A stretch of DNA of 64,000 nucleotides from Micromonospora nigra (GTDB taxonomy: Bacteria; Actinomycetota; Actinomycetes; Mycobacteriales; Micromonosporaceae): the NCBI RefSeq assembly GCF_900091585.1, contig NZ_FMHT01000003.1:4703501-4767500 (forward strand), in the 5' to 3' direction. Positions 38,234 through 63,649 of the stretch are shown here, piece after piece. The notes under the pieces were generated by a model. That model saw nothing but the letters and a program-made list of their open reading frames with translations, made no database searches and was not told the origin of the DNA. The position numbers were made by a program, and so were the translations under genes. How positions within the stretch are numbered: the stretch's first letter is position 1; every line of letters starts with the position of its first letter.

Positions 38234-39055
38234 ATGGACCGCACGGCGGCACCGCCTCGGGAACTGTTGGAGATCGCGATCGACGTGGCCCGGGACGCGG
38301 CGACGACGGCATACCGGATGCGGGCCGAGGGGGTCTCGGTCGCCGCGACCAAGAGCACCGTCACCGACGTGGTGACCGCCGCCGACCGGGCGGTGGAGCG
38401 GCAGGTGGTCGAGGCCCTGCGCCGCCGCCGGCCGGACGACGCGGTGCTGGGGGAGGAGTTCGGCGCGGCGGAGCACGTTGCCGCCGGGCCGGATCGGGTC
38501 CGGTGGATCGTCGACCCGATCGACGGCACCGTCAACTACCTGTACGGGCTGGCGCACTGCGGGGTGTCGCTGGCCGCGGAGGTCGACGGCGAGGTGGTGG
38601 CCGGCGTGGTCCGCAACGCCTTCACCGGCGAGGAGTGGACCGCCACGGCCGGCAGCGGGGCCTGGCGCGACGGTCGGCGGCTGCGTTGCTCCACCGAGAC
38701 CGACCTCGGTCAGGCACTGGTCGCCACCGGCTTCGGCTACGACCCCGGCCGGCGGGCCCACCAGGCGCGGGTGCTGGCCGGGCTGATCGCCGACGTGCGT
38801 GACATCCGCCGGCTCGGCGCGGCGGCGCTGGACCTCTGCCTCACCGCGGAGGGGCGGGTCGACGCGTACTTCGAGAAGGGCCTCGCCCCCTGGGACCTGG
38901 CGGCCGGCGGACTGATCGCCAGGGAGGCGGGGCTGCGCGTCGCCGGACTGGCGGGCCTGCCGCCCGGGGCGGACATGGTGGTCGCGGCCCCGCCGGCGCT
39001 GTTCGGGCCCCTGCACGCCCGCCTCGTCGACCTGGACGCGTCGGGCGGGCCGTGA
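38234..39055 (+). CDS. suhB: inositol monophosphatase family protein (SuhB-like)
   Basis: A Mg-dependent phosphatase of the inositol monophosphatase/fructose bisphosphatase superfamily. The 273-residue protein has all three metal motifs: GEEFG, WIVDPIDGTVNYLYG and APWDLAAGGLIAREAG. Its position beside sigA and the LytR_C gene matches suhB of M. tuberculosis. The real substrate could be inositol phosphate or another sugar phosphate. ATG at 38234 is chosen over an upstream ATG at 38165 because homologues start near MDRT and the extra stretch is not protein-like. Confidence 0.9.
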   Translation: MDRTAAPPRELLEIAIDVARDAATTAYRMRAEGVSVAATKSTVTDVVTAADRAVERQVVEALRRRRPDDAVLGEEFGAAEHVAAGPDRVRWIVDPIDGTVNYLYGLAHCGVSLAAEVDGEVVAGVVRNAFTGEEWTATAGSGAWRDGRRLRCSTETDLGQALVATGFGYDPGRRAHQARVLAGLIADVRDIRRLGAAALDLCLTAEGRVDAYFEKGLAPWDLAAGGLIAREAGLRVAGLAGLPPGADMVVAAPPALFGPLHARLVDLDASGGP

Positions 39056-39092
39056 GGCTCACCCGCCGGGGACCGGGCCGTGCGGCTCACCC
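39047..39092. repeat. 18-bp repeat over the suhB stop codon
   Basis: GGGCCGTGAGGCTCACCC (39047-39064) recurs at 39075-39092 with one mismatch, period 28 bp. The first copy contains the suhB TGA. Confidence 0.85.
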
Positions 39093-39150
39093 CCGGGGGC
39101 CTGGGGACGCCTCCGGCGGGTGTCGCTCAGGGCGGGCGCCCGCCCGGGCC

Positions 39151-39198
39151 GCGACCCCGTCCGGCGGCGACCCCGTCCGGTGGCGACCCCGTCCGGTG
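39151..39198. repeat. 16-bp triple tandem repeat
   Basis: GCGACCCCGTCCGGYG occurs three times end to end (39151, 39167, 39183), with a single C/T difference, in the spacer between two convergent genes. Confidence 0.95.
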
Positions 39199-39217
39199 GG
39201 CTCGCGGCCTGGCGGGG

Positions 39218-60124: not shown

Positions 60125-61417
60125 GTGACGCTGATCGACCTCGGTGACATGGACGGCAACACCGACGCGCGTGCGCTGCCCCCGCCGTCGCGAGCCGTCG
60201 GCCGGCCCGTGCGGGTGGCACTGACGGTGCTGCTCGTGCTGGTGACGTTGACGGCCTCCGCCGGGCCGGTGGTCCAGAGCCGGGCGACCGTGCCGGCGGC
60301 TGCGGGTGCGGCCGTCTTCCTCTCCGGGGAGCGGCTGTTCGTCGTGCAGCCGCCACCCACCAGGGCCGACGACGGCCGGTCGGAGCTGGTGACGTACCCG
60401 GTGCCGCAGCGGGCGGCGCCGGGTTGGCAGCGGCCCGAACCACTGTGGCGGGTTCCGCTGCCCCCGGGAAGTCGGAGCTGGCGGGTCGAGGTGGTGTCCG
60501 CCGGGGTGCTGGTGTCGGTGTCCGGGCGGGAGCAGACGACCCTGCTGCTCGACGCCGACACCGGTCGGACCCGGTGGACGGCCCCGGGGATCGCCATCAC
60601 CGACGGCTCCGACCAGGTCCTGCTGCAGACCCTGGCGAACCAGCCGACGCTGCGGGCGGTGGAGCTGGCGACGGGCCGCGAACGGTGGGCCGTGCCGGTG
60701 CCGATGACGGGGGTGGACCAGCGCTTCCGCGACGGCGTGATCGACCGCGTGGTACGCGCGCTGCCCGGCGGCCCCGTGGAGGTGCTCGACAGCCGCACGG
60801 GATCGGTGCTGCACCAGCTCGACCCGTCGGCCGGGCAACGGCCCATCCACCATCAGGTCCAGGTGGCCGGTGACCTGGTGCTGATGGTCCGCAGCCGGCC
60901 GGCCACCCTCGTCGCGTACGAGGTGGACGGCCTGCGCCAGCGGTGGTCGACGGCGCTGCCCAGGGTGGGACGGGTCACGCCGTGCGGTGTGCTGTTGTGC
61001 GTCGTCGGGCAGACCGGGGGCGTGCGGGCTCTCGATCCCGCCACCGGGGCGGTGCGCTGGTACGCCGACGAACTCCGGGCGGTGCTCAGTGTCGCCGGCG
61101 GTCCGCTCGTCGGGATCCGGCCGAGCGACGACGGCGACCGGATCCAGGTGCTCGACCCGGCCACCGGCCGGGTCACGGCCGACCTCGGCACCTGGCAGCT
61201 GGTGCCGTGGGCCGACCGTGACCAGCCGCTGCTCGTCACCCGCGGCGCGGCCGGGGGCGGGCTGGTGCTCGCCGAGGTGATCGACTCGGCCGGCGGGGTG
61301 CGGATCCGCGAGGTCATGCACGACGCCGTCGGCGGTTGCGTCACCGGTGGTGGCGCGGTCGCCTGCCTGCTGCGCGAGGACACCGGTGGGGGTGTCGGCG
61401 TGTGGCAGCTCGACTGA
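60125..61417 (+). CDS. membrane-anchored PQQ-type beta-propeller protein
   Basis: A 430-residue protein with one N-terminal membrane segment or signal anchor (about residues 30-50) and an extracellular propeller of PQQ/BamB-like repeats (LLLDADTGRTRW, RAVELATGRERW, VLDSRTGSVLHQL, RALDPATGAVRWY, QVLDPATGRVTADL). Such repeats form protein-binding scaffolds; no catalytic motif is visible. It is divergent from paralogue 3 across 135 bp and precedes the two-component genes. GTG at 60125 follows GGAAGGA. Confidence 0.83.
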   Translation: MTLIDLGDMDGNTDARALPPPSRAVGRPVRVALTVLLVLVTLTASAGPVVQSRATVPAAAGAAVFLSGERLFVVQPPPTRADDGRSELVTYPVPQRAAPGWQRPEPLWRVPLPPGSRSWRVEVVSAGVLVSVSGREQTTLLLDADTGRTRWTAPGIAITDGSDQVLLQTLANQPTLRAVELATGRERWAVPVPMTGVDQRFRDGVIDRVVRALPGGPVEVLDSRTGSVLHQLDPSAGQRPIHHQVQVAGDLVLMVRSRPATLVAYEVDGLRQRWSTALPRVGRVTPCGVLLCVVGQTGGVRALDPATGAVRWYADELRAVLSVAGGPLVGIRPSDDGDRIQVLDPATGRVTADLGTWQLVPWADRDQPLLVTRGAAGGGLVLAEVIDSAGGVRIREVMHDAVGGCVTGGGAVACLLREDTGGGVGVWQLD

Positions 61418-61519
61418 CCACACCGCGTTCGCCGGCGTTGCCGCCCCGGCGACGGTGGGTGACTCCGGTTTGGCGGCCGGCACTAGGTTGTCGGATGGTC
61501 ACGGCGAGGAGGTCGCGGT

Positions 61520-62188
61520 ATGCGGGTGCTGGTGGTGGAGGACGAACGTAATCTCGCCGACGCTATCGTCCGGGGGTTGCGCAAGCGCGGGATGGCGGTG
61601 GACGTCGCGTACGACGGCGACAGCGGCCACGAGATGGCCTTCGTGACCCGGTACGACGTGGTGGTGCTCGACCGGGACCTGCCCGGCATGCACGGCGACC
61701 AGATCTGTGCCGAGCTGGCCGCCTCCGGCGCACTGACCCGGGTGCTGATGCTGACCGCCAGCGGCACCGTCGCCGACCGGGTGGAGGGGTTGCAGCTCGG
61801 TGCGGACGACTACCTGCCCAAGCCGTTCGCCTTCGACGAGCTGGTCGCCCGGGTGCAGGCGTTGGGCCGCCGGGCCACCCCCGCCGCGCCGCCGGTGCTC
61901 GCCCTGGCCGACCTGGAACTCGACCCGGCCCGCCGGGTCGTCACCCGGGGCGGTCAGCCGGTCGACCTGACCAACAAGGAGTTCGGCGTGCTGTGCGAGT
62001 TGCTGAAGGCGCGCGGCGCGGTCGTCTCCAGCGAGGAACTGCTGGAACGCGTCTGGGACGCCAACACCGACCCGTTCACCACGATCGTCCGGGTTACGGT
62101 GATGACGCTGCGCAAGAAGCTGGGCGACCCGCAGCTGATCGAGACGGTGGTGGGCGCGGGCTACCGCACGGCCGGGGTGGTTTCGTGA
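61520..62188 (+). CDS. OmpR-family response regulator
   Basis: A 222-residue response regulator. The receiver domain (1-118) has the acidic pair EDE, phosphoacceptor Asp51 (VVVLDRDLPG), the LMLTAS switch threonine and Lys in LPKPFAF. A winged-helix Trans_reg_C domain (about 128-220) ends with VRVTVMTLRKKLGDP and the GAGYRT motif. The ATG at 61520 follows GAGGAGG. The stop lies inside the first copy of a 59-bp repeat, in a GTGA overlap that starts a short open frame instead of the kinase directly. Confidence 0.95.
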   Translation: MRVLVVEDERNLADAIVRGLRKRGMAVDVAYDGDSGHEMAFVTRYDVVVLDRDLPGMHGDQICAELAASGALTRVLMLTASGTVADRVEGLQLGADDYLPKPFAFDELVARVQALGRRATPAAPPVLALADLELDPARRVVTRGGQPVDLTNKEFGVLCELLKARGAVVSSEELLERVWDANTDPFTTIVRVTVMTLRKKLGDPQLIETVVGAGYRTAGVVS

Positions 62189-62247
62189 GCGTGAGGAGTG
62201 AGCCGGTGTTGCGAGCCCCGCAGTCGCGAACCGGGGTGGTTTCGTGA
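62185..62247 (+). CDS. 20-codon ORF 1 inside the 59-bp repeat array
   Basis: A GTG start overlapping the response-regulator stop (GTGA) opens a 20-residue frame beginning MSVRSEPVLRAPQSR and ending GVVS, the same four residues that end the regulator. Its stop overlaps the GTG of the second short ORF. It has no known homologue that I can name and may serve only to pass ribosomes on. Expression is inference. Confidence 0.4.
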   Translation: MSVRSEPVLRAPQSRTGVVS

Positions 62248-62306
62248 GCGTGAGGAGTGAGCCGGTGTTGCGAGCCCCGCAGTCGCGAGCCGGGGTGGTT
62301 TCGTGA
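62244..62306 (+). CDS. 20-codon ORF 2 inside the 59-bp repeat array
   Basis: Same structure as the previous short ORF, with one amino-acid change (Ala for Thr at position 16). It starts in the GTGA at 62244 and ends in the GTGA that provides the kinase start at 62303. Together the junctions would let a ribosome re-initiate three times in succession. Confidence 0.4.
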   Translation: MSVRSEPVLRAPQSRAGVVS

Positions 62307-63553
62307 GCGTGAGGAGTGAGCCGGTGTTGCGAGCCCCGCAGTCGCGAACCGGGGGTGACCTGGCGGCCGGTTCGCCCCGGCTGCGGCCGACGTTACGGCT
62401 GCGGCTCACGCTGCTCAACGGCGTCCTGCTGGTGGGTGCGGGCGCGATCCTGGTGCTGCTGGCCTGGCTGCTGGTCCGCGACGCCCTGCGCCCCACAGAC
62501 GAGCTGCTGCCCGGCACGACGGTGGTGCTGGCCGACGGTCGCACGCTGGACGCCGCGCAGTGGCAGCGGCAGCTGGCCGACTCCGCGTCGGGGGAACTGC
62601 TGGCCAAGGGGCTCGGTGCGCTGTTGGCGATCAGCGCGGTCGGGGTGGTCGGCGCGTACGCGGTCGCCGGCCGGGCGCTGCGCCCGCTGCACCAGGTCAC
62701 CGCCACCGCCCGCCGGCTCGGCGAGACGACGCTGGACCAGCGCATCGGCTACTCGGGCGCGGACGACGAGGTGGCCGAGCTGGCCGACACCTTCGACGCG
62801 ATGCTGGATCGGATCACCGCCGCCTTCGCGGCGCAGAAGCGGTTCGTCGCCAACGCCTCACACGAGCTGCGCACCCCGCTCGCCGTCATGCGAACCGAGA
62901 TCGACGTGACGCTCAGCGACGACGAGGCGGACACGGACGAGTACCGCCGGATGGCCACGGTGGTGCGTGACGCCTCCGAGCGGGCCAACGGGCTGGTCGA
63001 CGCGCTGCTGGTACTCGCCCGTAGTGAGGCGCAGACGGGCCGGCGGCTCGGCCGGCGTACCGAATGCGACCTGGCCGTCGGCACCGCCAACGCGTTGTCG
63101 GCGGTACGCCGCGAGGTGGAGCGGATCAAGCTGCGGGTGCAGACCTCGTTGGAGTCCGCGCCGGTGGTCGGCGATCCCGGACTGCTCGACCGGCTGGCCG
63201 GCAACCTCGTCGAGAACGCGGTCCGCTACAACCACCTGCACGGACGGATCTGGGTGCGGACCGGCTCCGACGGATCCCGGTCCTGGCTGGTGGTGGGCAA
63301 CACCGGTTTCGAGGTGGACCAGGCCGACGTGCCGGGGCTGTTCGAGCCGTTCCGGCGGGGCGGGCAGGAACGCACGGGCGCCCGGGGCTCCGGGCTGGGG
63401 CTCTCCATCGTCCGGGCGGTCTGCGACGCGCACGGCGGCACCGTCAAGGTGCTCGCCCAACCGGGCGGTGGACTGGAGGTCACCGTGACCCTGCCCTGCG
63501 CCGACAACCTTCCGGCGGTGGCCGCCAGCGCCAAACGGCGAGCCGGACCGTAG
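62303..63553 (+). CDS. sensor histidine kinase
   Basis: The 416-residue partner of the response regulator. Two membrane segments (about 30-52 and 92-115) flank a short external sensor of about 40 residues. A HAMP domain follows, then HisKA with the phospho-His in ASHELRTPLAVMRTE and a HATPase domain with N box LAGNLVENAVRYN, and GARGSGLGLSIVRAV. The first 16 residues are encoded by the third 59-bp repeat copy. GTG at 62303 overlaps the stop of short ORF 2. An inverted repeat lies about 100 bp after the stop. Confidence 0.94.
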   Translation: MSVRSEPVLRAPQSRTGGDLAAGSPRLRPTLRLRLTLLNGVLLVGAGAILVLLAWLLVRDALRPTDELLPGTTVVLADGRTLDAAQWQRQLADSASGELLAKGLGALLAISAVGVVGAYAVAGRALRPLHQVTATARRLGETTLDQRIGYSGADDEVAELADTFDAMLDRITAAFAAQKRFVANASHELRTPLAVMRTEIDVTLSDDEADTDEYRRMATVVRDASERANGLVDALLVLARSEAQTGRRLGRRTECDLAVGTANALSAVRREVERIKLRVQTSLESAPVVGDPGLLDRLAGNLVENAVRYNHLHGRIWVRTGSDGSRSWLVVGNTGFEVDQADVPGLFEPFRRGGQERTGARGSGLGLSIVRAVCDAHGGTVKVLAQPGGGLEVTVTLPCADNLPAVAASAKRRAGP

Positions 63554-63649
63554 CCGCCACGGGCTGGGCCGGAATGCCCAGGCCCGACAAGGCCCCTGCC
63601 GCGACACGCCTCGGTTACCGCTGACCGCCCCGTCGGTGCCCGGACGCGG

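Follow-up and report, generated by a model that had tools for sequence, protein, structure and literature searches.

What is a run of near-identical 59-bp repeats doing between a response regulator and a histidine kinase, and is it the private property of this operon or one outpost of something wider? The question is raised by the window (the whole stretch of 64,000 nucleotides that was analysed), and the initial annotation had already offered an answer, namely that the number of copies might tune the ratio of kinase to regulator; what it observed we can confirm, and its interpretation is, overall, partly supported. Our own answer, to which we would attach a probability of roughly 0.8, is that the 59-bp unit is a dispersed, MIRU-like element of the Micromonosporaceae that inserts at xTGA overlaps and bridges the resulting gap with a short frame of its own, so that coupling is kept. 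We consider its dispersal, its sense placement at junctions, the occurrence of empty junctions, repeated gain or loss, frame closure and differences in copy number between species to be established.

The layout in the window is as follows (Table 1). The repeat is entered at the regulator's stop, TGA 62186-62188, which overlaps GTG 62185, and a frame trace leads from the regulator through two frames of 20 aa to the kinase without a break, every step being a 4-nt GTGA overlap, exactly as had been described; each copy is indeed a complete stop-start module. Copies of 66 nt begin at 62171, 62230 and 62289, with a spacing of 59 bp and an identity of 97-100%, and the array's TRF score of 359 exceeds those of the other 39 rows for the window. 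Matches to a 19-mer and a 20-mer from the unit (up to three mismatches) are confined within the window to the three copies, shuffles leading one to expect 0.15 and 0.03. The bounds of the array needed correction: it had been placed at 62172-62348, but 62172 is still within the final codons of the regulator, and the unit itself begins at the GTGA at 62185. The regulator's final bases, GCCGGGGTGGTTTC, are found again at the end of unit 1, where 13 of 14 match, and of unit 2, where 14 of 14 do, which makes 62171-62184 a candidate for a duplicated target that includes the SD-like GGGGTGG. Other short tandem arrays, with periods of 28 bp and 16 bp, are found at 39046-39199 of the window and are apparently unrelated to the 59-bp unit.

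Table 1. Features of the regulator-kinase junction (positions in the window)
Feature	Position	Strand	Basis or remark
OmpR-type response regulator	61520-62188	+	Pfam Response_reg and Trans_reg_C, ORF list; upstream gene
Regulator's final bases, GCCGGGGTGGTTTC	62171-62184	+	Sequence; repeat-family start at 62171
Repeat unit 1, 59 bp, begins GTGAGCG	62185-62243	+	Sequence, profile
Short frame 1, 20 aa	62185-62247	+	GTG overlaps regulator stop; TGA overlaps GTG 62244
Repeat unit 2, 59 bp	62244-62302	+	Sequence repeats, profile
Short frame 2, 20 aa	62244-62306	+	4-nt overlap with each neighbour; TGA overlaps GTG 62303
Repeat unit 3, tail diverged or lost	62303-62354	+	Gives kinase start codon and first ~17 residues
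GAGGAG, 7-nt gap, GTG 62324	62311-62326	+	Possible independent kinase start within unit 3; in frame with kinase
HAMP histidine kinase, 416 aa from GTG 62303	62303-63553	+	Pfam HAMP, HisKA, HATPase_c

The third unit differs from the others in an instructive way. It is without the usual tail and the kinase is read directly from it, so that the element has taken over the kinase start, and the kinase of the window now depends on it. Indeed, the only ATG, GTG or TTG codons in the kinase frame ahead of the first membrane helix, whose position was judged by eye, are those at 62303, 62309, 62324 and 62327, all of them within unit 3. A GTGACC at 62355 resembles the kinase start of relatives (GTGACCCGG...) and is out of frame here; it looks like the ancestral start of the kinase.

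One might ask whether all this is an ordinary local tandem duplication with no wider meaning, and the near-identity of the copies within the site is just what such an event would leave. The answer is almost certainly no, and we leave this explanation next to no probability, since the family is dispersed, sits at junctions and occurs in every genome of the genus that was searched. Searching the 6.36-Mb window genome with a 17-nt core of the unit (at most one mismatch) finds 26 matches, several of them in tandem and mostly 57 or 59 bp apart, compared with a single match for the reversed pattern, and a sequence-only profile (R1, from alignment A1 of 24 units, 15 of them from the window genome) gives 45 matches there at E≤0.1 and 39 at E≤0.001. 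These figures refute a purely local duplication, and bear out the earlier suggestion that the unit belongs to a dispersed repeat family. Within the genus, 37 of 37 genomes have matches, with 16-79 in each of the 36 besides the window's own in the search of relatives, while the profile found none in 24 genomes from other families of the order. Sampling the family gave a match in at least 124 of 250 genomes and at least 25 of 44 genera, both being lower bounds because 24 candidates were scored per genome. Broader samples gave 45 of 298 genomes in the order, all Micromonosporaceae, and 2 of 396 in the phylum, both of the genus; so few candidates were scored per genome in these two (20 and 15, respectively) that diverged copies would be missed. 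In two species, a single unit lies between what we take, from motifs, to be gapA and pgk (L011:1485-1545, minus strand, and L229, near 1539).

Where do the copies sit? We assembled 152 sites, 22 from the window genome, 37 and 42 from the relatives G008 and G032, and 51 from other relatives, these last being the best-scoring loci rather than a random draw. The first detected unit begins with xTGA at 130 of the 152, and at 107 of these 130 an upstream coding frame ends exactly at the unit's TGA, a count that omits the 22 sites with no xTGA at the first detected unit, several of which have a truncated first unit. Downstream, the coding strand is forward at 128 of 130 sites, as called by a simple model of positional base frequency for which three window genes served as the training set. 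Taken together, an upstream frame that ends at the xTGA and a forward strand beyond the unit make this mainly a sense-oriented junction element. Flanks were compared at 48 single-unit sites, L249, L143 and L146 having turned out to contain further units that detection had missed. The octamer preceding the first xTGA and that preceding the downstream start share 4.02 bases on average, compared with 2.89 ± 0.16, and a maximum of 3.46 in 5000 trials, for shuffled controls. The duplication of flanks is thus clear but small, so that the insertions are for the most part old or else do not as a rule involve duplication.

The strongest regularity concerns length. From the start codon of the last unit to that of the gene the distance is 2 mod 3 at 100 of 128 sites, 0 at 26 and 1 at only 2, the class being set solely by the called frame of the downstream gene and not by the choice of start, and the count omitting 24 of the 152 sites (5 with the downstream gene reversed, 7 with no start within 40 nt and 12 whose last unit has no xTGA). 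At 96 of the 128 the overlap is of exactly 4 nt, and the 26 in class 0 are in-frame fusions. The three whole genomes taken alone give 66, 14 and 2 of 82 sites for classes 2, 0 and 1, and counting each distinct junction once gives 60, 11 and 0 of 71, with 51 of the 152 sites omitted for want of a clean upstream frame or start. The commonest lengths at the 128 sites are 59 (68 sites), 62 (17), 60 (13) and 56 (9). These are built from separate parts: the 5' part before the core falls into three main classes of 28, 26 and 23 nt, and the commonest tails are of 12 or 15 nt with the first of these and of 14 nt with the other two. The sum of 5' part and tail is 2 mod 3 in 97 of the 121 sites with a recognisable core (7 of the 128 being omitted), compared with 60.2 ± 4.1, and at most 76 in 5000 trials, when tails are shuffled. 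The 5' length classes do not share one reading frame for their peptides (an instance is ...SEPGLRAPQSRT... versus ...SAAERSPAVANE...); since the peptides differ in frame while the totals match, it is closure that is kept and not the peptide.

Closure as such should not be overrated. The chain from upstream to downstream gene, by 4-nt overlaps or fusions, is unbroken at 101 of 106 sites and does not close at 5; when inserts are shuffled at the same length, 55% of 5050 trials still close, and of 101 inserts 34 remain closed after one base is taken out of the middle and 78 after the loss of two, mostly as fusions. A closed chain is therefore not rare by itself, and it is the length classes that carry the weight. 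Fixed-length subfamilies and common ancestry mean that the sites are not independent, and some of the pattern could come from a handful of ancient subfamilies, each with its own fixed length. The spacings within tandem arrays are mixed (39, 25 and 6 of 70 are 2, 0 and 1 mod 3), so that short frames do not form a strict chain everywhere. With these qualifications, the comparison of sequences provides clear evidence that closure of the reading frame is preserved across the family.

Might the unit work instead through RNA structure, or by loading ribosomes or starting transcription on its own account? A search of 61400-63600 against Rfam gave nothing over the repeat at E≤1. There is a conserved foldback in which a 5' block pairs with a 3' block in 98.4% of cells, compared with 27-46% for slid controls, the structure having been drawn from a set of units that overlaps the tested one. 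Only one pair has changed on both sides, in 7 distinct sequences; such a pair also arises in 210 of 500 shuffles, but with fewer sequences, none reaching 7. We rejected the idea that the unit serves mainly as a stable RNA hairpin, since the pairing is conserved but four of five units fold with no better energy than shuffles. On the minus strand at 63036-63107, antisense within the kinase, there is a weak Rfam match to the nhaA-II RNA, far below the gathering score and probably due to chance.

A second idea is that each unit is a self-contained module for loading ribosomes, whereby the GAGGAG ahead of GTG 62324 would start the kinase independently of the regulator. This has its attractions, as the GAGGAG lies in a block that is invariant or nearly so over 24 units and the GTG is in the kinase frame, but the family consensus at that spot reads CCGGGnCTGCG, without a GTG, the 3' block has part of the GAGGAG region as its partner in the conserved foldback, and closure of the frame at the far start would be unneeded if the kinase were loaded independently. 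On balance we think it rather unlikely. That the repeat is a promoter or another transcriptional signal for the kinase seems to us very improbable: while there is a precedent in the promoter activity of the MIRU-containing senX3-regX3 spacer, as reported in PMC4213456, a simple scan of 61900-62700 for a single promoter type (sigma-70-like) and for terminators found no signal of either kind, and the length classes and the placement at xTGA would be left unexplained.

The same junction in other genomes is particularly informative. The orthologous regulator-kinase pair was compared in 80 named contigs, the best 80 of the 208 relatives found. In 64 of the 80 the junction is free of the element, and in 63 of these 64 the kinase start directly overlaps the regulator stop as an xTGA, the sole exception being L075. 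Recognisable units are present in nine relatives, seven in L059, three in L029, two in each of L028, L072, L074 and L101, and one in each of L030, L042 and L071; decayed remains, assigned by eye, are present in another six. The chain is closed in all nine of the former and all six of the latter, as well as in the window and in a Phytohabitans relative (L106) to which we return below, which makes 17 of the 17 junctions that carry a repeat, intact or decayed. The frames between the two genes measure 15 to 140 aa; L071 and L054 have a direct fusion instead. The kinase frame does, then, withstand the gain and loss of copies, as had been proposed. The ancestral state had been put, as probable, at one copy; the empty junctions point to zero, and the ancestral junction probably had no copies and a direct xTGA overlap. 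On a quick tree of regulator and kinase, presence of the element changes 9-10 times, at least six of them by well-supported branches, and the label is no more clustered than when shuffled (138 of 500 shuffles are as low), so that gain and loss cannot be told apart; judging from the tree, this junction has been invaded, or emptied, many times.

Copy number is thus far from fixed at three: 0, 1, 2, 3 and 7 units are seen here over 81 sequences, and elsewhere the number differs at 11 of the 16 junctions common to at least two sites. Is it, however, a heritable dial, in which each step of re-initiation loses ribosomes and more copies mean less kinase per regulator? The variation just described and the closed chain in all 17 versions speak for it, but several observations make us consider it unlikely. 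In Micromonospora deserti (L059:1364-1782) the seven units are spaced by 60 bp and, because 60 is a multiple of 3, are read as one frame of 140 aa; the same overlap at every junction, as seen in the window, is consequently not general, and in arrays of this kind adding a copy does not always add a step. Moreover, 64 of the 80 relatives manage with no unit at this junction, and the family occurs at many unrelated junctions in each genome, which suggests tolerance rather than a device specific to one operon.

How, then, might the element behave, on the reading that we prefer, as a MIRU-like unit that inserts at stop/start overlaps and bridges them? We picture it entering in the sense direction just after an xTGA where the stop of one gene overlaps the start of the next, an event that would duplicate the overlap and part of the ribosome-binding region that precedes it. 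The element would bring or regenerate a second xTGA at its far end, its own short frame spanning the gap, and in the window a ribosome finishing the regulator would restart at the GTG of the unit, translate some 20 codons, stop, restart and in this way reach the kinase. Insertion would be cheap for the operon, and tolerated, because the bridge keeps translational coupling. Selection would then hold the total length at 2 mod 3, or at 0 mod 3 where an in-frame fusion results, rather than the peptide, and, once units are present, slippage or unequal crossing-over might lengthen or shorten the tandem array. The foldback, for its part, could make the start of the unit inaccessible to free ribosomes.

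Is there anything comparable? REP/RAYT and other hairpin repeats are short, dispersed, imperfect palindromes, and the 59-bp unit is all of these things, but unlike them it sits at stop/start overlaps with a conserved frame. The closer likeness is to the MIRUs, which, according to a 2025 review, PMC12548453 (citing Supply et al. 1997), appear to be mobile, insert at start codons and have an internal ORF coupled to the gene at -4 nt. PMC4213456 places three MIRUs of 77 bp in the senX3-regX3 spacer of one strain and two of 77 bp with one of 53 bp in that of another, and credits this spacer with promoter activity. Both lengths are 2 mod 3, in the operon of a two-component system, and the same is true of our 59-bp unit; neither operon nor codon terms occur in a further MIRU paper, PMC7481465. 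The family also resembles MIRU in being a short, dispersed repeat with many copies per genome, in its sense placement at junctions with a -4 nt overlap (with the exact overlaps and fusions counted above), and in the dozens of scattered sites per genome, with junctions both filled and empty, that make it look mobile. Its tandem copy number varies between species, that of MIRU between two strains. Given the same placement, the same coupling and lengths of 2 mod 3, the 59-bp repeat works like MIRU as far as anatomy can tell. It is set apart by its length, mostly 56-62 bp, apparently by a sequence of its own, the profile of which matched only Micromonosporaceae genomes in the samples of order and phylum described above, and by some units that fuse with the downstream gene and supply its start codon. 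The listings and abstract openings of the open-access literature yielded no description of such a repeat in Micromonospora, and we regard it, from this comparison with MIRU by description, as a previously undescribed family of the MIRU-like kind in the Micromonosporaceae.

A second case comes from Phytohabitans suffuscus, where the same regulator-kinase junction (L106:2460-2930) is filled by a different repeat, two tandem copies of ~235 bp, each made up of two related halves of ~120 bp. The chain runs from the regulator through frames of 80 aa and 77 aa to the kinase, each step again by a 4-nt GTGA overlap, so that junction and architecture are those of the 59-bp family; the unit of ~120 bp is about twice as long, however, and by eye has only the GTGAGCG start in common with ours. 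It is apparently of independent origin. At least 31 matches to it are present in the P. suffuscus genome (40 candidates scored), and among nine distinct loci (12 were fetched, L279-L290) seven start at or adjoining a GTGA that forms the end of a frame open over at least 270 codons, the exceptions being L286, with only 17 codons open, and L281, with no xTGA at that place.

It is tempting to generalise from these cases, and we do so tentatively, holding it possible though distinctly short of probable that mobile elements in actinobacteria repeatedly settle at stop/start overlaps, a niche on which at least three families of distinct sequence have converged, using sacrificial frames and bringing with them dependence of the kinase and a ratio set by copy number. 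If this were true, the MIRU, the 59-bp Micromonospora unit and the ~120-bp Phytohabitans unit would all insert at xTGA, duplicate the overlap and pass ribosomes onward, a host gene such as the kinase of the window would have come to depend on the start codon of an element, and copy number would set a protein ratio. What we can offer already is the extension of a kind of element known from mycobacteria to another family, in two apparently separate versions, together with a natural experiment on translational coupling, in which dozens of junctions per genome are either filled or empty, with 0-7 units, and keep their reading-frame class rather than their peptide. This makes two questions testable in soil bacteria that are harmless, namely whether short coupled frames act as carriers of ribosomes and how elements find stop/start overlaps.

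As to how such elements might travel, the junctions of L101 (2841-2955) and the window (62185-62354) share a variant of the unit (GCGTGAGG, CCGGTGTTGCG) despite the distant placement of the two species, which may reflect horizontal transfer, retention or chance. No family match was found in 50,697 phage records, and of 72,556 plasmid records one has a match, the small plasmid pLB1 of M. terminaliae (L291). The copy is flanked there by a gene annotated as lysophospholipid acyltransferase and another annotated as glycerol-3-phosphate dehydrogenase, and in the public annotation one gene ends at a GTGA and the next starts 59 bp on, at the following GTGA. The same stretch of pLB1 holds the acyltransferase twice, under the same protein accession.
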